A stretch of 64,000 bases of DNA, from NCBI GenBank assembly GCA_946699065.1, contig CAMPDV010000877.1:1-64000 (forward strand), written 5' to 3'. The translations under genes and the position numbers were made by a program. The notes under the pieces were generated by a model. The model made no database searches. It was not told the DNA's origin and was given only the letters and a program-made list of their open reading frames with translations. Shown here piece after piece: positions 5,410 to 62,767 of the stretch (position 1 is the stretch's first letter; the number at the start of each line of letters is the position of its first letter). This DNA is from Loxodes magnus. Lineage: Eukaryota; Ciliophora; Karyorelictea; Loxodida; Loxodidae.

Positions 5410-8400
5410 CAGATCTTGAATTTCCAGACTTAGTCTGGATTGCTTTCCTTAAAGACAAATTTATTCATGCTAACTCATCCTTTTTATTATTGGGATATCG
5501 CTTCGGTTAAGTTTACTGCCTAGTATTATTCACTCCTTCTTTATTGCTCAAATTATATATCTCTCAAATTTAATTCCCTCTATACATTTTCTTTGTATAA
5601 AATATCCATTTGGAGTACAATATCGATTATTAAACGATTGGCATAACATTTAATTTTCTTGCTATCATTTTCATTTCAAATATCTTCAATATCTTACAGT
5701 ACGACTAACTCTACTTTAATATCAGTAATACTTTTTTTCTCTTATATAAAGAAATTTTTTCTGGCTGATATTAGGATCATTCATTGTTATATTTTAAAGA
5801 AATATACTATCCGTTAACTCTGCAAAATAATTAAACTTTGCTTCTAACTGTTTGATTCTCATATTTGCTGAAAACAAATTTTAATTTTTTAATTCTTAAT
5901 TTATAGAAATCAAGCATGCAATTTTTCCTTCTTTTTTTGACGTATCTTAAAAGTTTAAGACTTTTCTCTTGCATAATTTATATTCTTTAAGTATATTTTG
6001 CTATTATATTCTGATTGATATGAATCTTTTTTAACTGGGCTTTTTGAGAGAAACTTTCCGCTTTATTATATATAGTAATCAATTATTAAAAAGGAGATAA
6101 AATTATAGAAATAATTAGGAAGAAGCAAGTAAGCTTTATAATTTCATTCTCCATTTAAAGTAAATTTATTAATCAAATGCTTTGTTAGTTCTCTAGTCCC
6201 TCAACTTCTATATCATCTTTGCTTTAACTTTTATAATTTAAGGCTGAAGATTTGATTCTATATAAAACCTTACGATAACTTAGTTATGTTTTGACTTTTT
6301 TCACTTGAAACTTAATTGTATGAAATACTAATTTCAGAACATTCATTTTGATTTAGTAAAATCTACTTACAAAATTGCTAAGCATCGCTTTTAGCCTTAT
6401 ATTTTTAAGGCTCAAATATTTGCATCTCCTTTGTTTTGCTCAGTTTATTTTACATTTCTTTCGCTTTGATCAAAACTTTTGATGCACTTTGTTAAAGTTA
6501 TTCTTGCTATTCAGAAACACTTTTCTTTTCTAGACTTAAGTTGACTAGAGATATTTATCCTTTTTATTCTTCATTTCAAAGTTACTGAATTCTTTGTCTT
6601 TGTTGGTTCAAATGCTAGTGTATCATCTAAATTTTAGACCCAAACTAGAATGCAAATCTAAATAACGAAATAGTGTCTATTTTAGTTCTTAACAGAAATT
6701 TAGTATATTTCTTCTGATGGAAATAGAAAATAGTAAAAATAGCTATTTATAATAGCAGGAGAGTAATAATCATAATATCACTATGGGCTTTTTCTGCAAT
6801 GGCAGCTGTAGTGAAAATATACAAGTTAAGATTAACAATTAGCAAATAGAACTAAAAGCAGTTAATTCTGTCATAATTGTAAGGCCATTGGAGGTAGAAA
6901 AATATTATATAGATTAGTAAAATAATAATGCTGACTATTCCATACTCAAACTCATTGTCTTCCTTTATTATTCTTTAAATGAAAATTAATAAAAGCTACA
7001 TTAAGTATTCTACCATTATTGCTTTAGGCTTCATTTTTATGTGTAAATAAGGATATTTCATATCTTAAAAGTGAGGTTTTGATAAGATCGAAATTGGTAT
7101 CGATATTAATAGTAAGCATAAAGATATGCTAACTTAAGCTATATGCTTAGAAGTCCCACAGCTTGAATGGCAGTCACTTATTAGAAAGGTTTCTTTAAAA
7201 TCTATTTGTTAATCTAAATTTCTATCCAAACCTTGCACACATTAGTAAATTTTGGTTAAAACAAAAAAGGAAGGAAGTAATAGTAAGTCTCCAACATAAG
7301 GTAGTAAAGAAAAAAGAATGAGCCAATTTGCTTTATTTTTAAATATTTCTTGCATCTTAATTCAATTCTTTAAAGAAAGAAAATAAGAGCTATTATAAAA
7401 ATTGCTTCTATACCGAAACTCAAATAAAATAAAATCCAAAAAGTGTTTCTTCCTTTTACTTCAAAAACAAAGATTTGAATAAATTTATCACCTAATTAGC
7501 TTAGGATTTGTAAATCAGGTCCTATTGCGATTTACTAGATAAATTTGATAATAATAATAGCATAGTATAAATCATCTTAAAATGTTTGAGGCTTTTGCTT
7601 TACTAATTTCTTTACTCTTTTTTATTTTCATATTCTTATTCCTAAAATAAAAGTAGCTATGCTTATAATGCTTAATATTAGAAATACTATTATTTTTATC
7701 TTAATACTTCTTGTATAATCTTAAACATGTCTATTTGTGAAAGAGCAGTCTTCATATTTACTAAAATTATCTAAAGGTACTTAAATACTACCATGATACA
7801 AAATTGGAGTTTTGAAATCTCAGACAATAGCACAGCCTGGACAGAATTTTCCGTTATAAACGAAATCATATTAAGCATTATCAACTTCTTTTAAAGTTCT
7901 AAATAGAAATAAAGCATATGCTCTAAAGTTTTAGCTATTGAATTAAACTCTACCACTACATCCTATAAAATCTGATTTCTTTATTTAGTTAAGCATAATA
8001 TGAGGATCGTTGAAATTCTAACCGTTATTTATTAACTCCTTTAAAGCATGTGCTATTATATAAGCTTCATCTCAGAAACATACTTTGTATTGTTCATACA
8101 TATATTGTCCAATTTCTGATTATCATGCTATAGGATGAGTGAAAATTCAACTACCTACGTATAATTTTTTTAATTTTTATACTCCAAACTTCAAAGCATG
8201 CTCATTTTGGACAATATAGTTACCTGAGTTGTGTCGTATAAAAATAAAATCTCCTTATCTTCCTCCTGCGTCATAAAGTTATACTCCAAACTCTACTTAA
8301 GTTTCCACCCAAGCAAACAGAATTATAATTCTTATTTATTTAGCCAGAATATCTTAAATTATAGGCTAATACTTAATAGTTTTTTCTTCTGTGCTCCCAC

Positions 8401-10029
8401 TTAAAAACCAAGGAATAATTCTTAAATTAAGATTGCTAATGATATGAATATCATAAGAGTGAATACTGTCTATAATGTAGTTTGCAATAGCTTTATATTC
8501 TGAAATATTTTCTACATAGATTCCTATTTATTTCCATTTATTTCTTTATATAAACTTTAGGATTGTATTTCCAAATTCTTTGTAATTAGCATAATTGAAT
8601 ACTTATCACTTAAAATCTGCATCTGAAGAATCTTAATTTACCGAAAGAAAAGGAATTTGTACTCCGTATTCGTTCAAAAGATAGGAAGTAGGCTTCATAG
8701 AATCTGCGAATTTGACACAGTGAGCTACTCCTAATTTATCAATATATGGAATTAGATGCTCATTTAATATTCTCTATCGAACCAACTTTATCCATAATCT
8801 ACTTCAAAAGCTTTGAATTCATAATTATCAAGTAATCCCTTTCTTCTATTTGCATCTTCTGCTCCACATCTTATGGTATCTTATACAGCCCAGTTTATCG
8901 GATTAAATTCTCCTTTAGGAGTCAGTAAACTCATTTCATAGGAGAAAGTAAGAGTAATTTTGTTCTGAGGAGGATTTTACGACAATCCAGGCCAAATAAT
9001 CGAAGAAATGGATTGAAAAGTGTGGGCCTGAGAGAGATTATGAGTTATTATATTAAGAGAAGCTTACCTATTTATAATCTCTAAGTTAAGAATTAGCTAT
9101 TCTTAATACTTTTAGTTGAACTATTGAATACTAATATCAATATTGTTTTCCTTTTATTGCTATATGAAATTAGCTAATTTCTCTATATAAAGTTTAAAGT
9201 AATGCCAATTTATATAATTTTCATCTTGTCAATCTTCTTTAAAGGACTGAATTCCGAGAAGACCATTTTCGAAGATTTTATTTCTACTATTTTAGTTTTA
9301 TTTCATTATTAAACTTCCCTGCAAGCCAAAGATTCATGCAAAATTTTACTGTTATAATTTTATTTCTTAAGCAACTTGAAGTATCTAAAGGGTTAGAGTT
9401 TTATTTACCGAAAGAATGAAAACAGTTGTACCAGCTGACATTAGTAAAGATGCTAAATTATCACTAATTTTGTCTTGAATAGTGATGCTATATTTTATGC
9501 GAGACTAGTCTAGATATTTAATGGGTTAGTAATATTCCTTCTAGTTTTGCTAAATTGTCATTACGTTCTAGAAATCATAATATTTCAAAAATTAATTTAA
9601 GAATCTTCCTTCACTTTCATATGATGGATAGATATAGGGAACTTCATTTAGAACAATACTACTAAATTCTTCTTTTCTTGAGCACTTTATATAATGAAGA
9701 TTCTTTTGCTTTGTTTATTCATATAGTAACTAAGAGAACTAGCTTTAACCTAAAAAATCTATTATGAAAGAACTCCTTGAAAAGCTTTTTGTTTCTAATT
9801 TTTGTATGTCATGAAAGCCACTTATTTTGAGTATCTCATGCTATATAAGAATTTAATTTTCATCTTAAGTCTAAGAATATTTCTACAGTTCTTAATGAAT
9901 GTAACTTACTACACTCTAAGTTTCTGATGAGTAGCAAATAGCGAAATTTAGAACACCGTAAGATTAACTTACATAAATAAGATTTAAAAAGAGCAAAATA
10001 GCATTAGACATTTTAATGAGTTGCCTCAT
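5410..10029 (-). CDS. large multi-pass receptor with ANF/ligand-binding-type ectodomain
   Basis: The start MRQLIKMSNAILLFLNLIYV looks like a signal peptide. About 700 residues of ectodomain follow, resembling the ANF-receptor/periplasmic-binding fold (for example NPINWDVQDTIRCGAEDAN, LLNEYGVQIPFLSVNQ). The chain then has a transmembrane helix (about 7,730-7,680) and roughly eight more hydrophobic segments down to about 6,700, including LPYVGDLLLLPSFFVL and VSIIILLIYIIFFYLQW. A polar Gln/Lys-rich tail ends near PDQVWKFKI followed by TGA at 5,412-5,410. Five TGA codons in the ectodomain fall at Trp-like positions and recur in the duplicate at 60.7 kb. The frame shifts by one base at an A-run near 7,331-7,341 and again in the tail near 5,745, so the copy is either mildly decayed or carries homopolymer assembly errors. 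Role inferred: cell-surface sensing; ligand unknown. Confidence 0.75.
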
Positions 10030-10120
10030 AATTAATATTTAGTAGCCTTTAACTAATTTTTTAAATAAATGAATAAAACTATATAATCTTGTATAAACTC
10101 CTATGACTTTAATAATAGCT
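7994..10120. repeat. inverted segmental duplication, copy 1
   Basis: This block is repeated in opposite orientation at 60,596-62,767. It covers about 90 bp upstream of the receptor start codon through the ectodomain to just before the first transmembrane helix. Similarity stops abruptly after ...cctcatattatg in both copies. Confidence 0.9.
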
Positions 10121-13100: not shown

Positions 13101-13204
13101 AAGCTTTTTATGTAGTAAAGCAATATAAAACTTAAAAGCTATCTAGTTTTTAATTTAGATATCAATGTTTAGTTTAAATAATTATTATGCTTTATAAATT
13201 AGCA
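10121..13204. other. gene-less AT-rich stretch
   Basis: No gene recognised. It contains the repeat segment 11,918-12,242, listed separately. Confidence 0.45.
11918..12242. repeat. dispersed ~325-bp duplicated segment
   Basis: Nearly identical to 47,114-47,440 (for example both read cattttcttcaaatgctaaa and taacatgtacaacagaag). There it is joined directly to a copy of the tRNA-Thr flank, so the second locus is a mosaic of two source regions. No gene seen inside. Confidence 0.85.
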
Positions 13205-13276
13205 GCCTCTATGGCTCAGTTGGCAGAGCATTCGCTTAGTAAGCGAAAGGTCCGTGGTTCGAGCCCGCGTGGAGGC
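13205..13276 (+). tRNA. tRNA-Thr (anticodon AGT)
   Basis: The 72-nt sequence is identical to the 2,181 gene but in the opposite orientation, with intact A and B boxes and a TTTTTT terminator immediately 3'. The upstream ~10 bp (ataaattag) also resemble the other copy; the rest of the flanks differ. Confidence 0.95.
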
Positions 13277-14049
13277 TTTTTTATATAGTACTAAAAATAT
13301 AAAATTAAGTTTAGTTAATAATTATAAATAAGAAACTAATAAATATATAAAAACAATCTAACTACATAACTATAAGTTAATAAAGCATAATCATTTAACT
13401 ACTACTTAGTTTTCTTTTATTTACTTTAGTAACTAATTTAAAGTATAGGATATATTTAATAAATAAGGATTATTTATTTACATTTCTAGTTATTTAAATT
13501 GCTATTTTGCTTATATCTAATTTTATAAGACATCAAATAAAAAATTATTAAACTCTCTATAATTTAGAATAATATTGATCTAGGTTATAGGCAAAGTTTA
13601 AGAACTAAATGATTAAATTCTTAAAAAAGATTTTAACTAAATTATAGTTAGTTTATGTACAGGAAAATATAAAAGTTCTGTAAATAATTAATTATAAATT
13701 AATTAACAAATAATAATAAACTTACTCAACTAAAATAGAAAAGAATGATAATTAAAAGTTTAAATATTTATCATTTTTCTACATAATAATTAAAGGTTTA
13801 AACTTTATCTTAGTTTTATTATTTCCTAAAATTGTATACTTTGTAGTTAAAGCATAATATTAAATGAAATTATATTAATCTAACTGTATAGTTAAATTAA
13901 ATAATAACCTATATAGCCCTCTTATTATAATTAAAGTTGGTTGCTAAGAAATAAATATTTTAGTATAATAGTTTATAGCTTATAATTTGAATATTATCAT
14001 TTCTCTATTTATCTCTTGTTTATTAGTATTTTAATTATTAACTTCTATC
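13277..14049. other. gene-less AT-rich stretch
   Basis: Nothing recognised. Confidence 0.5.
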
Positions 14050-17368: not shown

Positions 17369-20114
17369 AGTAATTATTTCGCTTTTTTATTTTTTAGATA
17401 ATTTTCCTGTTTAAGTGTTTTGTTCAAAGTTCTGTTATTTCTTAGAAGCCATTTTATATATTTAATATAATAATAATAATGCTAGTCTATTTATAGCTCT
17501 ATAATAGTTTCAATCGCCTCATCAGAAGATTTGGCAGATGAATAGTCAAAATTATGTTTAAACCTTTCTCATCTTAATACTTTTTAAAATTAGAAACTTA
17601 GTTTTGCTTAAGATTAAAATATCTGATAGTAACTTAAATAGGTCCTGAATCAAGAGTTTCTTATTTTACTAAATAGTTTTCATAATTGAAATATCAGTAT
17701 TTATGCTCATTAATTTCAGCTTATTCAAAGTAGCTAGTTAAGAAAAATTTGAATCATTATACTCATTCTTAGGGACTTTAAATATCTTTCATCTTCTATC
17801 CTTAAATACTAAATTACTTATTTTTCCAAAGGTAATTAAATTGAGCTTCTAACAAAATATACTTGCTTTTGATTTAGATTGAGAATGATTATACCAAGTA
17901 AGACTATTCAGTAATTTAGATTAATCAAAAAGTTTATTATTTTCATATTGCAATGCCTTATAATATGTGAATTCAAATCCTTTTCACTTTCTTCAGTTTG
18001 CACACTTTTACTTCAAGCATCGGATTATTTCATCACTTCTGAGAAATCTAAGTGAAAGTTATAGAGATTAGCTTATTAGTTTGCTTCGTATTTTTGTTAT
18101 TTGAATTACTTAATTTCTTGGTAAAGTATGTCTTATGCAAGTAGAAATGATATTCTTCTTCTATTTTTAAGCAAACATTTAATCTAAATTACCTTTATTT
18201 TGTAAAGCTTCCATATTTCATATACTCAATGGAATCTTCTCTTTTATCTTCCAATTTTTAGCTCTACTTTGCTGTCTTCCTCATCATAGTAAGTACAGAT
18301 CATTGCTACTAGTCAACTCATTAGAATTCACGCTACAAATACTTGGCAACCTAAATACAAAATCCAAGTCAAAGCAGTATCCATATCATAGCTATCTCTC
18401 ATACTGTCAGTTTCGAATATCATTATAATGAAAACATGAGCTAAAGCTTTTTTAAAATCATTAAACTGTTCAATGGCATTACCAAATCTAACGTAAGCTA
18501 AAAATGCACAGCTTAGTGAAATGCTAATCAGCATAATTAGTAAATATTTTATTTATTCCTAGACATTTTGTATTGTCTTGGAAATTATTGAAGCTTGAGG
18601 AATCAAACTTCAGAATTTTATTACTCCAATGCTAAGGACAAAGAAACTGAATGCTTATACTCTTCTATAGTTAGTAAAGAATCTTGCTAAGCTATTGAAT
18701 TCCTCAATTATTTCATCACTTCCTAAAGAATATTTATCGGTATCAACCATATCTTTTCTAAACCCATATCTTATGTATGAAAACCACATGCAGAAGCCTC
18801 CCAAAATAAGAATATGAGAAACTATTTCTATTACATTCCAAAATTACTTGAATTAGATCTTAATAGCTTTTATAATATGCTTAATTCATTTTCGGTAAGC
18901 TAATCTTTACTTTAGCTTCTTAAGTTTGTCTAACTTACTATCTCTGTTTAACTTATTTTGGCTTTAATACAAAATCTAGTTTTCATTTACTTCGATTTAC
19001 TTAATTTTGAATTGATTTTCTTGGTTTTGCTCTATAAAATTACTTTCTTCTAAATATTAGACATTTTCTTAAGTTTGTTCATGATCTTGTAAGGAAAGTA
19101 AAGCTTATGATTTAATCTGAATTAGTATTTTCAAAATGTTTCAAATATTGATAACTGCTAAGATTATTTCTAGAATTAGTCTTCACCATCGGTCGCTTCC
19201 ATAAAAAAGCTCTACAGGCATAGATTAAATATGTTCTGTTGGTTTTAAAATTCCACTCTACATAATATCGAATTAAAGAACTACATAAGTGAATAGTTAG
19301 AAATTAGCATTGTAAGTAACAAAATCTATGTAGAAGACTATTGTTTGATCATCTACATAATCATTATTTCACATTCTTCAAAATTACTCAGTAAAATCAG
19401 ATCTATTATAACCTATCGCTTACAGATAATAAACGTATCCACCGTTTCCAAAAGAGTCAGCTTTTGTATATTCAAACGTTTTATTTGGACCATAAGGCTC
19501 ATCACTTTCAATGGAGCTATCAAAATAAGAAGGAAGCTTTGCAGCTGCTTTAATTTTTTCTACATATTCCTTATATTTAGGAGAATCATTCTTAATAAGC
19601 TTAGCTCTCCTTTAAGTAAATCTTATTTAAGAAATCAACTTGTTGTAGAAATTGATCATATAAGGTTCAAGTTTTTGATATTGAAATGTAAAATCTGGAT
19701 ATAAGTCAATGGGAATTTTTTATTAAATCATAAAGAAAAATCTTGTTTACTTTCTATTTCATTAAATTAATGCCTTTCTATTGTATTAATTCACTGCCTA
19801 AATGAGCTGTTTACTAAATAAGCATCTTCCAATCTAAGTTCATCTTAAATAACAATGAATAACAAAACATAATAAACTATGTATTTAAGTAAACTTAGAA
19901 CCTTAGAGTCTTTTCTTTTCTACGAAAAATCTTAATCTTATTTATCAGTTTATGACTCAAAACCAACTACCTGCTCTTATTGAAGTGCTTATATTTTTTC
20001 CTTTTTTATAACCTCTTCATCATTTAACTAGCTGTTTAGAGATACTTTAGGATTTTAAATATGTGCTAGTGATGTAAGAAGCATATCAGAATTTGAGATG
20101 TTCTTTTCTTGCAT
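17365..20114 (-). CDS. polycystin-2-like (PKD2 family) cation channel
   Basis: The start is MQEKNISNSDMLL, followed by a first hydrophobic segment (YIVYYVLLFIVI). The extracellular TOP domain contains TIVFYIDFVTYNANFQLF, matching the polycystin FIDFxxYNANxxLF signature. Helices S2-S6 follow, with FFTNYRRVWAF, a pore region FNDFKKALAHVFIIMIFE, and S6 WILMSWLVAMICTYYDEEDS (compare polycystin LLNMFLAIINDTY). About ten Trp positions are TGA, for example RMWNNDY, DRWWRL and RFHWVYE. Two GT-AG introns restore the frame: 17,980-18,011 (32 nt) and 17,734-17,762 (29 nt). A third frame change near 17,564-17,580 could be a 17-nt intron. A one-base shift sits at an A/T run near 19,711-19,722. The stop is TGA at 17,367-17,365. 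Likely a Ca2+-permeable channel, possibly ciliary. Confidence 0.88.
17734..17762 (-). other. putative 29-nt intron (polycystin gene)
   Basis: Sense GTATAATG...AACTAG. Removing it joins ...KVPKN to DYFEQAEINEHKYW in one frame. It falls in the C-terminal tail and the length is 2 modulo 3, as the frame requires. Confidence 0.6.
17980..18011 (-). other. putative 32-nt intron (polycystin gene)
   Basis: Sense GTAAAAGTG...GAAAAG. Removal joins ...KQSDAW to RFEFTYYKALQYENN in frame. Confidence 0.6.
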
Positions 20115-25072: not shown

Positions 25073-27482
25073 ATGGATTTAACTATCTGTTAAAGTTGCA
25101 AAGAAGTGTTTGATTAAAGTTAAAGATTGCCAAAAGTTATTAGCTGTGGTTGTGTTCAATGTGCTAAATGCATCCAAAACGTTCTAAGAGTTACTGATAA
25201 AATAAATTGTAGGATTCACAATTAATAAGTTAATATAGAAGAGTAGAATTTGAAGGATTTCTCAATTTAAGAATATTATATGTAAGAAATAAGTAGGTTT
25301 GAGTAATAAGTCGGTTTGATGTAACTGGTAAAAGACTTATCTGAATAGACAAACTAGTAGAAAGTAAGAGTGATAAAAGAGCAATAAAATAGTTTAAAAT
25401 TTTATTGTTTGTTTAGTGATATAGTCAGATAGGTTACCTAGATAATATGTTAGAATGAAGCAAGTGGTTGTTAGAGGAGTATAAACTAGATAGAAGTGGT
25501 TTTGAAGAAGATAAATGTAATCAGTGTGAGGTATTAGTAATTAAAGTTTCTTAAGGTAGTATCGAGTTAGGAGTGCAATATTAATATAAATGTTTTGAAT
25601 GAATTAGTTAAGGAGTTTGAGGGATTGAAGGCTGAGATAAAGAAAATAAGTGATTTAAATTATTAGGACGTTAATTAGAATTATAAGATCATCGAAGAAA
25701 TTTCGGTTTAAGTGTTAAAGGAGATCATGGATATGAGTCAAGAGTAGGAGGTTAATGTTAAAGATTATGCAAATTTAATAAATAAGTGTATTGACTAATA
25801 AAATCTTCTCATTGAGAATCGAGAAAAAGTTTAAGAATAAATTTAAGAGTAAGGCAAGGTTTAAAGTTAATAAGTATAATAATAAATATAGTCTCAAATT
25901 TAATAGTAAATCTAGCCGATGTAAGTTATAAAGTAGTCATTATAGGACTTTTAGATAGAAAGTGTGTAGAATCTCTAGAATATTCTTAGTGAATTTTAAA
26001 GTAGGAAAGTAGATATGAGTGCTATCTTAGGTAATTCATAGGATATAATTAATTTATATAAAAATTCTATGATAGTTTACGATTTAGTGTAACTAAAATC
26101 TGAGAAGACTTAGTAATATCTTTTATAGATATTGAATTTGGCTAAGAACAACTCAAAAATGCAAATAGCAGCAGCCAATTCATTAACTATGTTGAACTAC
26201 ATGAACTTTACATTCAACAAATAAGATTTATAAAACCTTGACTTTACTAACTCAGATCTTTCTGACACAACCTTCACCAATTGTAACTTCGCCAACTCAA
26301 ACCTAACATCAGCTAACTTACGCAACACTAAGTTCCTCAACTGCGACCTATCCAATGCCAACCTGTCATCCATAATCACTGAACACCCTCACATCTTCAC
26401 TGGACACACCAACTCAGTCACCTCAGTTGCCATCTCACCAAACGCTAACTTAATAGTATCTGGATCATTTGACAAAACTCTAAGATTCTACAACATAGCT
26501 GAAGGTACCTGTAAGACCATGAGTGGTCACACTAGTCATGTATATGCTGTGGCTATATCCAGTGATTCAGAGTTCATCGTATCGGGAAGTGCAGATACTA
26601 CTCTTAGACTTTACAATATCAAGACAGGTACCTGTAAGACCATGAGTGGTCACACTAGTTCTGTATTATCTGTGGCTATATCCAGTGATTCAGAGTTCAT
26701 CGTATCGGGAAGTGCAGATGAGACGGTGAGACTATGGAACGTCAAGACAGGTACCTGTAAGACCATGAGTGGTCACACTAGTTCTGTATTATCTGTGGCT
26801 ATATCCAGTGATTCAGAGTTCATCGTATCGGGAAGTTATGATAAGACGGTGAGACTATTTGACGTCAAGACAGGTACCTGTAAGACCATGAGTGGTCACA
26901 CAGATTGAGTATCATCTGTGGCTATATCAAGTGATTCCACTTACATCATATCTGGATCTGGTGACAAAACTATTTGTTTATGGAACTCAAGAACACAATA
27001 ATGTACCAAGGTCTTATCGGGTCACACATCTTATGTCTTATCGGTAATATTCTCGAGTAACAACAAGTATATCTTATCAGGATCACGAGACAAGTCCATA
27101 TGAATCTGAAATGTCTCTAATGGATAGTGTATCTGTGTTTTAAATGGTCATACGGACACAGTGGGTAGTTTATCAATATCTAGTGACAACTAATGGTTAG
27201 TATCGAGTAACGGAGTTAAGTATTGTTGATATTACGGTGATCTTAACTAATCGAAAGACTACAATTTCCGAAGATGAAACGTAGGAAGGATATTGAATGG
27301 AGAATAGACAACTAGCTAACAATAGGTAAGTTTTAATTTAACACACCACATTTATATAGACTGACTGGAACAAAGTATATGCTGATTATGGATTGCGATT
27401 TTAGAATTGCAATGTGGTGAGCATAACAATGAGTGGAGAGGATAAAAAAAGATATGGAATATCTGACTGTGTGATTTTTTGA
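25073..27482 (+). CDS. RING finger - coiled coil - pentapeptide - WD40 protein
   Basis: One continuous frame of 791 residues after removal of a 34-nt intron. Residues 6-33 form most of a RING (C6-x2-C9...C25-x-C27-x2-C30-x2-C33, with a later CRIH). Residues ~180-300 are coiled-coil/Gln-rich, largely TAA/TAG codons. A short helical linker (~365) precedes pentapeptide repeats (~375-435: DFTNSDLSDTTFTNCNF), then seven WD40 repeats (~441-706, each with GHT). Internal TGA codons sit at WD40 Trp positions (GHTDWV, SIWIWNV, YCWYYGD, RRWNVG), while the terminal TGA at 27,480 ends ...GISDCVIF. Three 123-nt repeats are almost identical, implying recent expansion. The start is the first ATG in frame directly before the RING. 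RING plus WD40 suggests an E3 ubiquitin ligase with a WD40 substrate platform (inferred). Codons from ~26,190 on end in C far more often than in the first half. Confidence 0.93.
26504..26905 (+). repeat. 123-bp tandem repeat array inside WD40 gene
   Basis: Units start at 26,504, 26,627, 26,750 and 26,873 (partial) at ggtacctgtaagaccatgag. Each encodes one 41-residue WD40 repeat. Nucleotide identity is near complete except at the ...ADTTLRLYN / ADETVRLWN / YDKTVRLFD segment. Confidence 0.95.
27326..27359 (+). other. 34-nt intron (RING/WD40 gene)
   Basis: GTAAGTTTTAATT...TTTATATAG, phase 0. Skipping it changes the frame to TDWNKVYADYGLRFQN and gives a clean TGA stop 40 residues later. Without it the frame becomes low-complexity. 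Confidence 0.85.
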
Positions 27483-31444: not shown

Positions 31445-31996
31445 TCAGATCATCTCCTCCTATATCTCTATTTTATTACTCTCTTCGACTCCTTATTCTT
31501 TTTAGCTCACTTTTATGAACATCTAAATGTTACAAACTATTAATAATACTCCAAGTATAAACACTTTAGTCATGAAACTTTTTTCTGCTTAATCTGAATT
31601 TTCTTTTATCTCTCTAATCCAGTCACTACATTTTTCGTCCTCTTATTCTTTGGTAATTTCTGATAAAAATATAACTACAATAGCTCCTATAAAACTAGCT
31701 ATACTAATTAGATATAAAATAACACTCATCTTCTCATTACTTTTATCTTAGAGCTTTAGTTTATCTTTGAACTAGAAAATGAGGAAAATAAAATACTAAG
31801 ATAAAATTTGAAGCTACAGGATTCTGCATAAAAGCTAAAGATGATAACTATACTTAAACTCTTAGCAAGGCTTATAATATAAACCTTGGAAGTAAAGGAT
31901 TAGTTCTATTACTGTGACTAGCATTATGATGAAAATCGATTCCAAAAGATTCTTTATACCTGGAGTTATCTTATGAGCAGCTAAATTATTTTTCAT
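31445..31996 (-). CDS. small four-transmembrane protein, conserved paralog family
   Basis: An intact frame of 183 codons ends in TGA. Hydrophobic segments lie at ~19-37 (ESIFIIMLVTVIELILYF), ~60-76 (LSQYFIFLIFQF), ~90-111 (MSVILYLISIASFIGAIVVI) and ~141-161 (FMTKVFILGVLLIVCNIQMF). Both connecting loops of one face carry a conserved Cys: YYKPC (44) and EKCSDWIREIKENS (123), a possible disulphide. The cytoplasmic loop has KLQDKSNEK. Close paralogs lie at 52,400, 42,416 and 48,387, a distant one at 41,143 and a relic at 14,050. I do not recognise the family. The topology recalls tetraspan/claudin-like proteins, but no signature of those is visible. Confidence 0.82.
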
Positions 31997-33490: not shown

Positions 33491-33992
33491 TAAAATAAAT
33501 AAATAAATTTGATTATAGAGCGCGTAGCACTCTCGTTGGCGTGCAGCTCTTTAATAAATGTTATTTACTGACAAGAATGTTTGCTACTGATAACATTATC
33601 AGATACTGATAAACCTTGCTCAATACTGGTATAATTATTCAGTACTGATAAAAATGTTCAATACTGATATAATTTCAGAATACTCGTAATCTTTAATACT
33701 TGTTGGAAGTCCAAGGACATGGTAGGATTGTGTCTCATTGCATCACCAAAGTAGAAGACGAGATGTGTCAATTATGGGTACTTAAATTCCCCACCTCTAA
33801 TGAAGCTCGCAAAAATAATTTCCTTTTATTTCCAGAATTAAATCTAAAATAAGCCAGTGCCGAAGGTCTAAGAATCTTATGTCTCGAGGCCAAACCAAAG
33901 CAGAGGAAGACATAAAGTCGATTATGGGTACTTAACTTCCCCAACCTTTGATGAAGCCGTCCCTTGTTGTTCACCTTCGAACAACTATGGCG
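33491..33992 (-). mobile_element. SINE-like retroposon, copy A
   Basis: One of four close copies (also 38,097, 46,511 and 50,411). Read on the minus strand it starts cgccatagttgttcgaagg with the near-palindrome gttgttcgaaggtgaacaac. Two ~77-bp direct repeats follow (cttcatcagaggt(t)gggga...tatgtct type), then seven ~19-nt units of atcagtactg type (33,566-33,690). It ends with a hairpin (gagctgcacgc...tacgcgctc), ataatcaaa and a (TTTA)n tail at 33,491-33,510. No open frame is shared by all copies. The tail, variable 5' end and lack of terminal inverted repeats suggest retroposition. Confidence 0.75.
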
Positions 33993-38096: not shown

Positions 38097-38550
38097 TAGT
38101 TGTTCGAAGGTGAACAACAAGGTCATCTTCATCAGAGGTTGGGGAAGTTAAGTACCCATAATCGACTTTATGTCTTCCTCTGCTTTGGTTTGGCCTCGAG
38201 ACATAAGATTCTTAGACCTTCGGCACCGGCTTATTTTAGATTTAATTCTGGAAATAAAAGGAAATTATTTTTGCGAGCTTCATTAGAGGTGGGGAATTTA
38301 AGTACCCATAATTGACACATCTCGTCTTCTACTTTGGTGATGCAATGAGACACAATCCTGCAATGTCCTTGGACCTCCAACAAGTATTAAAGATTACGAG
38401 TATTCTGAAATTATATCAGTATTGAACAAGGCTTATCAGTATCTAATAATGTTATCAGTAACAAACATTCTTGTCAGTAAATAACATTTATTAAAGAGCT
38501 GCGCACCAATGAGAGTGCTACGCGCTCTATAATCAAATTTATTTATTTAT
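38097..38550 (+). mobile_element. SINE-like retroposon, copy B
   Basis: Plus-strand copy starting tagttgttcgaaggtg and ending tataatcaaatttatttattta. It has only about five of the 19-nt units (others have seven) and lacks the ccgcca 5' nucleotides of copies C and D. Otherwise nearly identical. Confidence 0.8.
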
Positions 38551-42415: not shown

Positions 42416-42952
42416 TCAGACCATCTCAGCTTTATTAATCTCTTCTCTATTCTATTCTGTCTCATTCACCTTTAAATATATGAAAATGTTGTAGACTATT
42501 AATAAAATTCCTATAACAAGCACATTAGTCATGAAGTTTCTTTTTGCTTAATCCGGGTTCATTTTTATTTCTCTAATTAAATCATCGCAGCTATCCTCTT
42601 ATTCCTATAGAAAATTAGTTCATAATATGAATGAAATGCCTCCTATAAAGTTTACCACACTAGTTAGGTATAAAATTATGCTGAACTTCTCTTTGCTTTT
42701 GTCTTATAGTTTTTATTTATCATTGAACTCAAAAATGAGGAAAATAAAATACTAAAGCAAGATTTGCAGTTATAGAATACTGTTAATGAGTTAGAAACGA
42801 TTACCATACTTAGAATCTTAGCAAGATTTATAATACTAACCTTGAAAGTAAATAATTAATTCTATTAGTGTCACTAAGAATATGATAAAGGCAGATTCCA
42901 ATATTATTTTTAAGTTATGCTTTGGCTGTAATGACAGTTGGGAATTTTTCAT
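42416..42952 (-). CDS. small four-transmembrane protein, family member
   Basis: Intact 178-codon frame ending in TGA. TM1 LESAFIIFLVTLIELIIYF, loop YYKSC, TM2 LLQYFIFLIFEF, TM3 FSIILYLTSVVNFIGGISFI, loop DSCDDLIREIKMNPDQ, TM4 NVLVIGILLIVYNIFIYL. Lengths and loop cysteines match 31,445. The N-terminal 18 residues differ most. Expression and location are unknown; a membrane protein with two same-side Cys loops is inferred from topology. Confidence 0.82.
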
Positions 42953-45809: not shown

Positions 45810-46510
45810 TATGAATAACTATATGATATATGACTATTATGATAGATAATAATCTTTATAGATATAAAAGTATATTTAAAATATTAAATATTAAGATATT
45901 TTAATATATCTCATTTTTTATTTAGGTAAAAAAGCTACTTTAAGTCTTAATAAATGCTAATAACTAAGAATAAATAGTAATTTTAGATAAGAGTAGAAAT
46001 AAGTAATTAATAAGAATCTATGAATTAAAGCTTACTCTTTATTGTTATTTTATTAATTATTTTAAGCATTAAAATAATTAAGAATAATAATATTTTAAAT
46101 AGATTGAAATTGTTAAAACATTTCAAAAGAAAGACTAAGAATTTGTTGATATTTATTTAAAAGAGTATTAATTAAAATTGTATTAAAAATATAAAAATAT
46201 CTAATAAGTAGTTTAAAAATATTGTAAAATAAATAAACTATTATATTAGTATTCTATTTCTTTAATATCTATTTAAGTTATGTCTTTTTCTAAATATAAT
46301 AGAATATTAGTTTATTTATTAAATAATTTCTAATTTGTATATAATATTTTTATTATATTTTCTTAATTAAAATTCTATTAATTAAATATTTAATAATATA
46401 TCTTATTTATTATTAAATAAAAAGCCTCCACGCGGGCTCGAACCACGGACCTTTCGCTTACTAAGCGAATGGTCTGCCAACTGAGCCATAGAGGCTGTTA
46501 ATTTATAGAT
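45810..46510. repeat. segmental duplication, copy 2 (left part)
   Basis: Diverged collinear copy of 1,550-2,258, including a tRNA-Thr copy. It is interrupted by SINE-like copy C and resumes at 47,037-47,113. Confidence 0.75.
46424..46495 (-). tRNA. tRNA-Thr (AGT) variant, possibly inactive
   Basis: Identical to the 2,181 gene except for one base: sense GCAGAGCA reads GCAGACCA. This breaks one of the four D-stem pairs (GCTC with GACC). The anticodon AGT, acceptor, B box and T-run terminator are intact. It may be a pseudogene or a weakened gene. Confidence 0.8.
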
Positions 46511-47036
46511 AAATATAAATAAATAAATAAATTTGATTATAGAGCGCGTAGCACTCTCGTTGGTGCGCAGCTCTTTAAAAAAAATATTTCATACTGACAA
46601 GAATGTTTGTTACTGATAAAATTATCAGATACTGGTAGACCTTGTTCAATACTAATATAATTATTCAGTACTGATAAAAATGTTCAATACTGATATAATT
46701 TTAGAATACTCGTAATCTTATCTACTTGTTGGAGGTCCAAGGACATGGCAGGATTGTGTCTCATTGCATCACCAAAGCAGAGGACGACATGTGTCAATTA
46801 TGGGTACTTAAATTCCCCACCTCTGATGAAGTTCGCAATATTATTTCTTTTTCGTTCCAGAATTAAAAATAAACGAAGCCAAGCCAGTGTCGAAGGTCTA
46901 AGAATCTTATGTCTCGAGGTCAAACCAAAGCAGAGGAAGACATAAAGTCGATTATGGGTACTTAACTTCCCCAACCTCTGATGAAGATGACCTTGTTGTT
47001 CACCTTCGAACAACTATGGCGGTTTTAAAAAATAAT
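46511..47036 (-). mobile_element. SINE-like retroposon, copy C, with target duplication
   Basis: Flanked by the 6-bp direct repeat atagat (46,505-46,510 and 47,037-47,042). The paralogous site at about 2,260 reads ttaatttatatataataaat with no insertion. The minus-strand element starts attattttttaaaaccgcca, has the two ~77-bp direct repeats (46,755-46,831 and 46,909-46,986), seven ~19-nt units and the terminal hairpin. It ends in (TTTA)n at 46,511-46,532. Confidence 0.88.
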
Positions 47037-48386: not shown

Positions 48387-48939
48387 ATGCTCTCTATTGC
48401 TAATAGAGTAAGTCCAGGAGTAAAGGCTTTAGTGGAATCAGCTTTCATTATATTGCTAGTCACAACAATAGAAATATTCTTATAGATTCAAGGGTAATAT
48501 TATAAAGCTTGCTATGCTTCTCAGGATAATTATTACTTAAGTCTTTAATAGAGTCCTCTAGTTTTAAGTTTTCCTGCTGTACTTTACTTTCCTCTTTTTC
48601 GAGTTCAAAAAGAAACACGAGTAGCAAGAAGGAAACTAAGAGAAGATTTGTATAATTTTACAAATATCAAGTATAGTAAGCTTTATAGGAGGCATAATAA
48701 TCATAATTTGATAAGATTTTACTTAGGAGTAAGACGAAAAATGTGGAGAATATATCGAGGATATAAAGACAAACCCAGATTAAGTATTAAGAAATTTCAA
48801 GATTAAAGCATTTATTTTAGTATTTTTAGTACTTACTTGCATCAGTTGTATGTATCTAAGAATTAATAAGACAGAAGAGAATAATGCTAAGGACAGTAAA
48901 GTTGAGATAAATAATGAGATAAGTAATTAGATAATCTGA
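48387..48939 (+). pseudogene. four-TM family member with one frame change
   Basis: Starts MLSIANRVSPGVKALVESAF with TM1 IILLVTTIEIFL and loop YYKAC. After a one-base frame change near 48,545 it continues FLLYFTFLFFEF (TM2), SSIVSFIGGIIIII (TM3), the loop EKCGEYIEDIKTNPDQ and TM4 AFILVFLVLTCISCMYL, ending at TGA. Length (553 nt) is one base off a multiple of three. Sequencing error and a genuine mutation cannot be told apart here. It neighbours the half-LINE ORF at 47.5-48.2 kb. Confidence 0.7.
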
Positions 48940-50410: not shown

Positions 50411-50932
50411 TATTTTTTAAAACCGCCATAGTTGTTCGAAGGTGAACAACAAGGTCATCTTCATCAGAGGTTGGGGAAGTTAAGTACCCATAATCGACTT
50501 TATGTCTTCCTCTGCTTTGGTTTGGCCTCGAGACATAAGATTCTTAGACCTTCGACACTGGCCTAATTTGGAATTAATTCTGGAACGAAAAAGAAATAAT
50601 ATTGCGAGCTTCATCAGAGGTGGGGAATTTAAGTACTCATAATTGACACATGTCGTCCTCTACTTTGGTGATGCAATGAGACACAATCCTGCCATGTCCT
50701 TGGACCTCCAACAAGTATTAAAGATTACGAGTATTCTAAAATTATATCAGTATTGAACATTTTTATCAGTACTGAATAATTATACCAGTATTGAACAAGA
50801 TTTATCAGTATCTGATAATTTTATCAGTAACAAACATTCTTGTCAGTATGAAACATTTATTTTTTAGAGAGCTGCGCACCAATGAGAGTGCTACGCGCTC
50901 TATAATCAAATTTATTTATTTATTTATATTTA
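50411..50932 (+). mobile_element. SINE-like retroposon, copy D
   Basis: Plus-strand full-length copy: 5' attttttaaaaccgccatag, near-palindrome gttgttcgaaggtgaacaac, two ~77-bp repeats, seven ~19-nt units (50,730-50,850), terminal hairpin gagctgcgcacc...ctacgcgctc and (TTTA)n tail. No clear target duplication seen. Confidence 0.85.
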
Positions 50933-52399: not shown

Positions 52400-52945
52400 T
52401 CAAATCAACTCTTCACTTGTCTAAACTTCATTACTCTCTTTGCCCTTCTATTCTGACTCTTTTAATTTAGCATACATACATATATTAAAAAATACAGCTA
52501 AAATTCAAATAGCAATCAGTTTAGCCTAGAAATTTATTTTCGCTTACTCTGAATTTTCTTTTATTTCTCTAATTCAATCACCACAATTTTCATCTTATTA
52601 GGTATATTCCGAACAAAATACGAGAATAATAGCTCCTATAAAACTCACTACACTTATTAGATATAAAATAATGCTCATCTTCTCTTTACTTTTATCTTAG
52701 AGTTGTTGTTACTCTTGGAACTCGAAAATGAGGAAAATAAAGTACTACGATAAGATTTAAAGCTATAGAACCCTCCAAAGTATTTATAAGTGATAACTGT
52801 ATTTAGATTCTGAGCAAGGCTTATAATATTATCCTTGATAGTAAAGGATTATCTCTATTGCTATCACCAGTAGTATGATGAAAGCCGATTCCAGACAACT
52901 TTTTACACCTGGACTTATCTTACTAACATAAGGGATGTTCTTCAT
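52400..52945 (-). CDS. small four-transmembrane protein, family member
   Basis: Intact 181-codon frame ending in TGA. N-terminus MKNIPYVSKISPGVKSCLES, TM1 AFIILLVIAIEIILYY, loop YYKPC, TM2 LSQYFIFLIFEF, TM3 MSIILYLISVVSFIGAIILV, loop ENCGDWIREIKENSEQ and TM4 LIAIWILAVFFNICMY. Two Trp codons are TGA (GDWIRE and AIWILA). The first is TGG in the 31,445 paralog. Flanking DNA is also duplicated between the two loci. Confidence 0.83.
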
Positions 52946-60100: not shown

Positions 60101-60697
60101 AAATCATAAAATTAAATTGCATAAAATCCCTAATATACCATATAAATAACTAAAGCCAGAATGCTTAAATAAAAACAAATTTCATGACTATTATAGAGGT
60201 TTAATATATTATTTCCATATATCACTTGCTTAGTACAAGCAACATATCGAAACTCTTTAATAAAATTAAATGAATACATTTTTTGTTATACAGAGCCAAG
60301 AATAGCACTCACTCAAGAGAAATTAATAAATTGCAACTTAATATAAATTAAAAATTTAAACTTAATTGAAATATTAATAACTATTTAATATCAATGTAAA
60401 AATCTAAATACTCTAAACTCCCTCTATTTAATAGGTTTGCTAAAAGAACAATTTTAATATCCCTTTATCTTGGCTCTGAAAGTTAATTCTTTAGACGATT
60501 GCAATGCGATAATGTACTTTTATAAGAATAAAATTATATAATGCAAATATCTTTTAGATGTATAGTAGAAACATTAATTAAATTTGGAAGAATATGACTA
60601 TTATTAAAGGCATAGAGGTTTTATAAGGTTTAAACATAGTTAAAGAGTTTTATTCACTTATTTAAAAAAATTCGTTAAAAGTGATTAAATATTAATT
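60101..60697. other. spacer upstream of duplicated receptor copy
   Basis: The last ~100 bp match the upstream region of the receptor gene at 10,030-10,120. The rest is featureless. Confidence 0.45.
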
Positions 60698-62767
60698 ATG
60701 AGGCAACTCATTAAAGTGCTTAATGCTTTATTGGTCTTTTTAAATCTTATCTAGATAAGTGATGCTCGGTTAGTTCTCAATTTCATTATTTGCTATTCAT
60801 CAGAAACTTAGAGTGTAGTAAGTTACATTCATTAAGAACTGTAGAAATATTCTGAGACTTAAGATGAAAATTAAATTCTTATATAACATGAGATACTCAA
60901 AATAAGTGGCTTTCATGATATACAAAGATTAGAAACAAAAAGCTTTTCAAGGAGTTCTTTTATAATAGAATTTTTAGGTTAAAGCTAGTTCTCTTAGTTG
61001 CTACATGAATAAACAAAGCAAAAGAAGCTTCATTATATAAAGTGCTCAAGAAAAGAAGAATTTAGTAGTATTATTCTAAATGAAGTTCCTTATATCTATC
61101 CATCATATGAAAGTGAAGGAAGATTCTTAAATTAATTTTTGAAATATTATGATTTCTAGAACGTAATGACAATTTAGCAAAACTAAAAGGAATATTACTA
61201 ACCCATTAAATATCTAGACTAATCTCGCATTAAATATAGCATCACAATCCAAGACAAAGTTAGTGATAATTTAGCATCTTTGCTAATGTCAGCTGGCACA
61301 ACTGTTTTCATTCTTTCGGTAAATAAAACTCTAGCCCTTTAGATACTTCAAGTTGCTTAAGAAATAAAATTATAACAGTAAAATGTTGCGTGAATCTTTG
61401 GCTTGCAAGGAAGTTTAATAATGAAATAAAACTAAAATAGTAGAAATAAAATCTTCGAAAATGGTCTTCTCGGAGATCAGTCCTTTAAAGAAGATTGGCA
61501 AGATGAAAATTATATAAATTGGCATTACTTTAAACTTTATATAGAGAAATTAGCTAATTTCATATATTAACAAAAGTATAGCAATATTGATATTAGCATT
61601 CAATAGCTCAACTAAAAGTATCAAGAATAGCTAATTCTTAGCTTAGAGATTATAAATAAGTAAGCTTCTCTTAATATAATAACTCATAATCTCTCTCAGG
61701 CCTATACTTTTCAATCCATTTCTTCGATTATTTGGCCTGGATCGTCGTAAAATCCTCCTTAAAACAAAATTACTCTTACTTTCTCCTATGAAATGAGTTT
61801 ACTGACTCCTAATGGAGAATTTAATCCGATAAACTGGGATGTATAAGATACCATAAGATGTGGAGCAGAAGATGCAAATAGAAGAAAGGGGTTACTTGAT
61901 AATTATGAATTCAAAGCTTTAGGAGTAGATTATGGATAAAGTTGGTTCGATAGAGAATATTAAATGTAGCATCTAATTCCATATATTGATAAATTAGGAG
62001 TAGCTCACTGTGTCAAATTCGCAGATTCTATGAAACCTACTTCCGATCTTTTAAACGAATACGGAGTACAAATTCCTTTTCTTTCGGTAAATTAAGATTC
62101 TTCAAATGCAGATTTTAAGTGATAAGTATTCAATTATGCTAATTACAAAGAATTTGGAAATACAATCCTAAAGTTTATATAAAGAAATAAATGGAAATAA
62201 ATAGGAATCTATGTAGAAAATATTTCAGAATATAAAGCTATTGCAAACTACATTATAGACAGTATTCACTCTTATGATATTCATATCATTAGCAATCTTA
62301 ATTTAAGAATTATTCCTTGGTTTTTAAGTGGGACCACAGAAGAAAGAACTATTAAGTATTAGCCTATAATTTAAGATATTCTGGCTAAATAAATAAGAAT
62401 TATAATTCTATTTGCTTGGGTGGAAACTTAAATAGAGTTTGGAGTATAACTTTATGACGCAGGAGGAAGATAAGGAGATTTTATTTTTATAGGACACAAC
62501 TCAGGTAACTATATTGTTCAAAATGAGCATGCTTTGAAGTTTGGAGTATAAAAATTAAAAAAATTATACGTAGGAAGTTGAATTTTCACTCATCCTATAG
62601 CATGATAATCAGAAATTGGACAAGATATGCATGAATACTACAAATAATGTGCAACGAGCTATATTCCAAACTGGCAATGTTATTTCTGAGATGAAGCTTA
62701 TATAATTGCACATACTTTAAAGGAGTTAATAAATAGCGGTTAGAATTTCAACGATCCTCATATTATG
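60596..62767. repeat. inverted segmental duplication, copy 2
   Basis: Opposite-orientation copy of 7,994-10,120. Ends abruptly after cctcatattatg. Confidence 0.9.

Follow-up and report, generated by a model that had tools for sequence, protein, structure and literature searches.

A WD40-repeat gene as a further example of the ambiguous UGA code in a probable Loxodes magnus genome

The gene at 25073-27482 of the window (the whole stretch of 64,000 bases that was analysed) is a new example gene of the published Loxodes code, in which UGA serves both as a tryptophan codon and as the stop. We regard it as very probable that the DNA belongs to a Loxodes nuclear genome, most likely that of L. magnus, using NCBI table 27, with UAA and UAG for glutamine and UGA for tryptophan and termination. 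Table 27 (TAA = Gln, TAG = Gln, TGA = Trp or stop) has been published for this very species (PMC11441545; this and the other papers are cited here from parts of their text), and the ambiguous code, correct as it is, is already known for Loxodes because that paper states it; there is nothing new in the code itself. An earlier note on the same DNA had proposed that table 27 fits best, and this is borne out by masked alignments, paralog codons, gene ends and tRNA genes together. Its phrase that all three stop codons are reassigned holds only when joined to its second half, the double duty of TGA, and fails when taken alone, since TGA keeps its stop role. What the sequence shows is the meaning of the codons inside the gene, the codon at its end and the existence of the tRNA genes.

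The gene at 25073-27482 and its copies

A single plus-strand gene spans 25073-27482 and comprises 792 codons after removal of a predicted 34-base intron. Read straight through with table 27, the stretch is open, but its last portion is out of frame; the shift near the 3' end is explained by the predicted intron, found by eye and by script, whose removal restores the frame. The features of the gene are as follows.

25073..27325, plus strand: exon 1, 751 codons, Cys-rich, Gln-rich and WD40 parts; TAA 37, TAG 28; TGA at codons 612, 677, 679, 719 and 735
26906..26908, plus strand: TGA codon 612 (GHTDWV), variable among copies
27107..27109, plus strand: TGA codon 679, in the WD40 Trp register; TGA in 16/16 readable copies; the repeats at 555 and 637 have TGG in that register
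27275..27277, plus strand: TGA codon 735 (RRWNVG); of the 16 readable copies, 10 have TGG and 6 have TGA
27326..27359, plus strand: predicted intron of 34 bases (GTAAG...ATAG), with a match at the corresponding site in 28/30 fetched copies
27360..27482, plus strand: exon 2, with one TAG, ending ...YGISDCVIF and the TGA stop at 27480-27482

The predicted protein has a Cys-rich and then Gln-rich N-terminus, as read from the sequence, followed by seven WD40 stretches (Pfam PF00400, E 5.5e-69). The dozens of TAA and TAG codons that the earlier note had seen in the gene amount to 37 TAA and 29 TAG in the spliced coding sequence, next to 8 CAA and 0 CAG. TGA occurs five times internally and once as the terminal codon 792, and TGG four times (codons 555, 637, 708 and 754). 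The internal TGA codons lie where that note had placed them, in GHTDWV (612), SIWIWN (677 and 679) and RRWNVG (735), and also in YCWYYG (719), and the end on TGA after GISDCVIF was confirmed. The longest TGA-free run in the frame of the gene is 611 codons, whereas the remaining frames reach 134 and 73, and because of this run and the constraint downstream of the TGAs (pN/pS, given below) the open frame exceeds chance.

Relatives of the gene were searched for in the whole assembly (705,730,643 bases, or 705.7 Mb, in 7843 contigs; the published macronuclear assembly of L. magnus is 706 Mbp, PMC11441545). The search gave 59 matches, including the window's own, with two genes matched in two pieces each; like the window gene, the matches contain many in-frame TAA and TAG codons and mostly one to five TGA codons. 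A separate WD40 search of the assembly scored 150 of 98,927 candidates and serves here for the assembly size alone. Thirty loci were fetched. In 28 of them, the window's own included, a GT..AG intron of 26-38 bases was matched at the position of the predicted one, its lengths being both multiples and non-multiples of three; the remaining two gave no such match. Twelve of the 28, in which no CVIF end was found, were cut to stubs, which leaves 16 readable copies for the paralog counts of ends and columns. Introns of L. magnus have a mode of 17 bases, with 93% of them at 25 bases or less (PMC11441545); the gene shares very short introns with the published genome, whereas its own predicted 34 bases (26-38 in copies) are longer and fall in the long tail of that distribution.

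Among the close copies, pN/pS is 0.26 in codons 1-479, 0.87 in the WD40 codons 480-611, 0.44 after the first internal TGA and 0.33 after the last, on the basis of 78 non-independent pairs from 13 distinct of 14 close copies (L012-L025). These last two values suggest, from sequence comparison, that the part downstream of the internal TGAs is translated.

A composition-score gene search of the window returned many segments besides this gene; by eye, only a polycystin gene and two frames related to each other look gene-like, the rest being mostly within repeats or unassigned. Two long inverted copies at 8078-10065 and 60662-62650 (1305 nt at 94% and 683 nt at 98% likeness) hold a related open frame that has no Pfam match. 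A dispersed repeat family occupies 31638-31937, 42594-42893 and 52587-52886 (73-78% alike), and near its members, as well as near 48715, a short frame (...DWIREIK... and variants) recurs. Short repeats, the longest about 460 bases, lie in both orientations at 33495-33956, 38127-38550, 46571-47034 and 50411-50869; they are 90-99% alike and perhaps a small mobile element.

TAA, TAG and TGA inside genes

All stop-type codons were set to X and the masked proteins aligned to solved structures, with one target row per query. TAA faces Gln in 16/39 columns (the next residue, E, in 6) and TAG faces Gln in 4/12. In the paralog columns TAG is the commonest partner of TAA, and TAA that of TAG, while TAA opposite AAA (88) exceeds TAA opposite CAA (59). 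Together with the genes for tRNA-Gln(UUA) and tRNA-Gln(CUA), the masked columns and the exchange of TAA and TAG among copies identify both codons as glutamine.

TGA faces Trp in 5/12 masked columns, with any other residue facing it at most twice, and in 7/12 it faces a non-Trp residue of the solved relatives; three of the loci (L079-L081) had been picked for carrying three TGA each, and the tally is thus not a random sample. In a beta-tubulin copy, TGA stands at two positions where tubulin has Trp. Within the window gene, the WD40 Trp register reads TAC at 514, TGG at 555, TTT at 596, TGG at 637 and TGA at 679. Codon 735 alternates between TGG and TGA; at codon 677, 13 of the 16 readable copies have AGA and 3 have TGA. 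Over 14 internal TGA columns of the paralogs the other codons are TAT (26), AGA (18), TGT (15), TTA (14) and TGG (10), meaning that TGG is not the commonest alternative, and one TGA faces TGT in 15 copies. Codon exchange between paralogs more than 93% alike covered only two pairs, and these have no TGA difference. The masked columns, codons 679 and 735 and the pN/pS values agree in pointing to UGA as tryptophan inside genes.

The polycystin gene did not add to this. It lies on the minus strand at about 18115-19698 (PKD_channel PF08016 and Polycystin_dom PF20519) and has several in-frame TGA codons, of which the earlier note had counted about ten at Trp positions; that claim is not supported by a PDB alignment to PKD2L1, in which 0/7 aligned TGAs face Trp and the facing residues, read by eye, are Q, Q, D, Y, I, F and M. 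With polycystin added, TGA faces Trp in 5/19 columns.

Could the code be table 6, with only UAR reassigned to Gln and the copies with internal TGA being pseudogenes or ending early? Several observations lean that way: the frame holds fewer TGA codons than its base composition would predict (6 observed, 12.5 expected), no TGA occurs in the tubulin domains of L004-L011, the WD40 stretch ahead of codon 612 evolves loosely, and many TGA columns in the copies lack alternation with TGG. Against this stand the constraint on the codons downstream of the TGAs, a C-terminus retained in 16/16 copies, the TGA/TGG alternation at codon 735, the occupation of the WD40 Trp register by TGA, and the beta-tubulin copy with its two TGAs, and we consider table 6 extremely improbable. 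A further alternative to a genome-wide code, programmed readthrough or insertion of selenocysteine at a small number of TGA sites, would agree with the fact that TGA also terminates the window gene; the internal TGAs are, however, numerous, differ among copies and occur in unrelated tubulin copies, which reduces the chance of this explanation to almost nothing. The tryptophan reading of table 27 is retained here.

TGA at gene ends

The ends of three further gene families agree with the TGA end of the window gene. All 35 ends identified in four gene families are TGA, with 0 TAA and 0 TAG. They comprise the CVIF end of the WD40 family, kept as CVIF-TGA in 16/16 copies with a readable end (30 fetched) in a search that required any of the three stop-type codons after CVIF, histone H4 (9/9, directly after ...LYGFGG), alpha-tubulin (8/8 by eye, from a single contig) and eRF1 (2/2 by eye); the 16, 9, 8 and 2 ends come from copies belonging to four families and not from independent genes.

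This count bears on the Condylostoma-type code, NCBI table 28, in which each of the three codons is both sense and stop. The likeness to Condylostoma magnum lies in the use of all three former stops, UAA, UAG and UGA, as sense codons (PMC4967479), but UAA and UAG also end genes there, whereas here they account for none of the 35 ends, though in four gene families only, and table 28 is disfavoured for this reason. A histone H4 copy (L089) moreover carries TAG 10 codons ahead of its end, and in L. magnus UGA and UAA are depleted ahead of the stop while TAG is not (PMC11441545). Taken together, a table 28 code appears very improbable.

Under table 27, the window and its assembly resemble L. magnus as published (PMC11441545) in UGA for tryptophan and stop, in UGA as the sole stop, and in the depletion of UGA and UAA. 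Across the 13 distinct close copies, which form one gene family, the last internal TGA lies 57-108 codons ahead of the stop and the last TAA 42-66; these gaps are in line with the published depletion. Parduczia sp. likewise has UAA = Q, UAG = Q and UGA = W, with UGA standing where stops are expected (PMC4967479), but it is another genus, and its code was taken from transcriptomes.

tRNA genes, eRF1 and the reading of UGA

The earlier note had suggested looking for tRNA genes with TTA, CTA and TCA anticodons, and the first two proved abundant, while patterns gave no credible gene for the third. A pattern for suppressor tRNA-Gln matches 263 places in the assembly, whereas its backward control matches 20; of the 100 places listed, 98 are of two near-identical types, and one UUA and one CUA copy fold (L075, L076). 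A broad UCA-anticodon pattern matches 31 places versus 70 for its backward control, and the CCA version of the same pattern 139 versus 22. ARAGORN finds no tRNA in the two fetched of the 31 UCA-pattern places, the rest having been judged from their listed letters. Those two (L077, L078) come from seven near-identical CTTCAGA...GTTCGAGTC places returned by the UCA search, which were rejected as tRNA genes after ARAGORN found neither of the 2/7 fetched. All seven look like tRNA 3' halves, the fetched pair differing on the 5' sides; these places are perhaps tRNA fragments carried by an element. A general tRNA search of the assembly gave 63 matches and 30 loci (L042-L071). The window itself holds three tRNA-Thr(AGT) genes (2179-2253, 13204-13278 and 46422-46496), each embedded in a repeat some 160 bases long, and a single tRNA-Cys(GCA) gene (2864-2937).

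The tRNA-Trp pattern matches 126 places, and all 100 among the matches listed have the CCA anticodon. UGA reading by a tRNA-Trp(CCA) with a 4-bp anticodon stem has been described for Blastocrithidia, Condylostoma, Blepharisma and Loxodes, Swart et al. being cited for the form in Loxodes (PMC13092985, PMC12005148). A stem with the unpaired pair A27.C43 (numbering of this analysis) occurs here at 52 places, of which 48 form a tandem array on contig C67; the one copy of this type that was folded (L072) has the pair unpaired. A full 5-bp stem is found at three places, all on contig C110, and the two folded copies of this form (L073, L074) have imperfect T-stems. About 72 further places, at least 50 of them in an array on contig C148, differ somewhere in bases 27-29, as deduced from counts for those unlisted. 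Compared with the published 4-bp systems, the unpaired pair here is A27.C43 and the 5-bp form exists as well; a mixture of both stem forms is also found in Amoebophrya, with one 4-bp form of seven (PMC13092985, PMC12005148). The genes for tRNA-Trp and tRNA-Gln (UUA and CUA) are partly in tandem (contigs C67, C148, C130 and C214), with periods of roughly 190-590 bases.

Stop recognition is governed by the TASNIKS and YxCxxxF motifs of eRF1. Two eRF1 copies lie on contig C196 (L002/L003) and carry RAQNIKS for human TASNIKS, its Q encoded by TAA, and FLCENTF for YLCDNKF. The best match in a PF03463 search for eRF1 (L001) reads by eye as Pelota/Dom34.

These parts would fit a mechanism in which the dedicated tRNA-Gln(UUA) and tRNA-Gln(CUA) serve UAA and UAG as plain codons for glutamine, and in which UGA may be read by the 4-bp-stem tRNA-Trp(CCA), as published work leads one to expect. 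Near the transcript end eRF1 would win and UGA would stop, as proposed for C. magnum and Parduczia (PMC4967479), and, again following published work, proximity of the poly(A) tail may decide between a sense and a stop UGA. A more speculative proposal, which we hold to be rather unlikely, is that L. magnus keeps two tRNA-Trp(CCA) pools, the tandem-arrayed 4-bp form reading UGA and the 5-bp form only UGG, and that the ratio of these pools, set against an eRF1 with changed motifs (RAQNIKS, FLCENTF), would determine whether UGA is read or stops.

The case confirms that a code lacking any dedicated stop codon can be recognised from a window of raw sequence read blind. Such genes would probably be broken by gene finders built on fixed stops, and the tRNA-Trp arrays together with the eRF1 motifs provide concrete parts with which the two roles of one codon can be tested.
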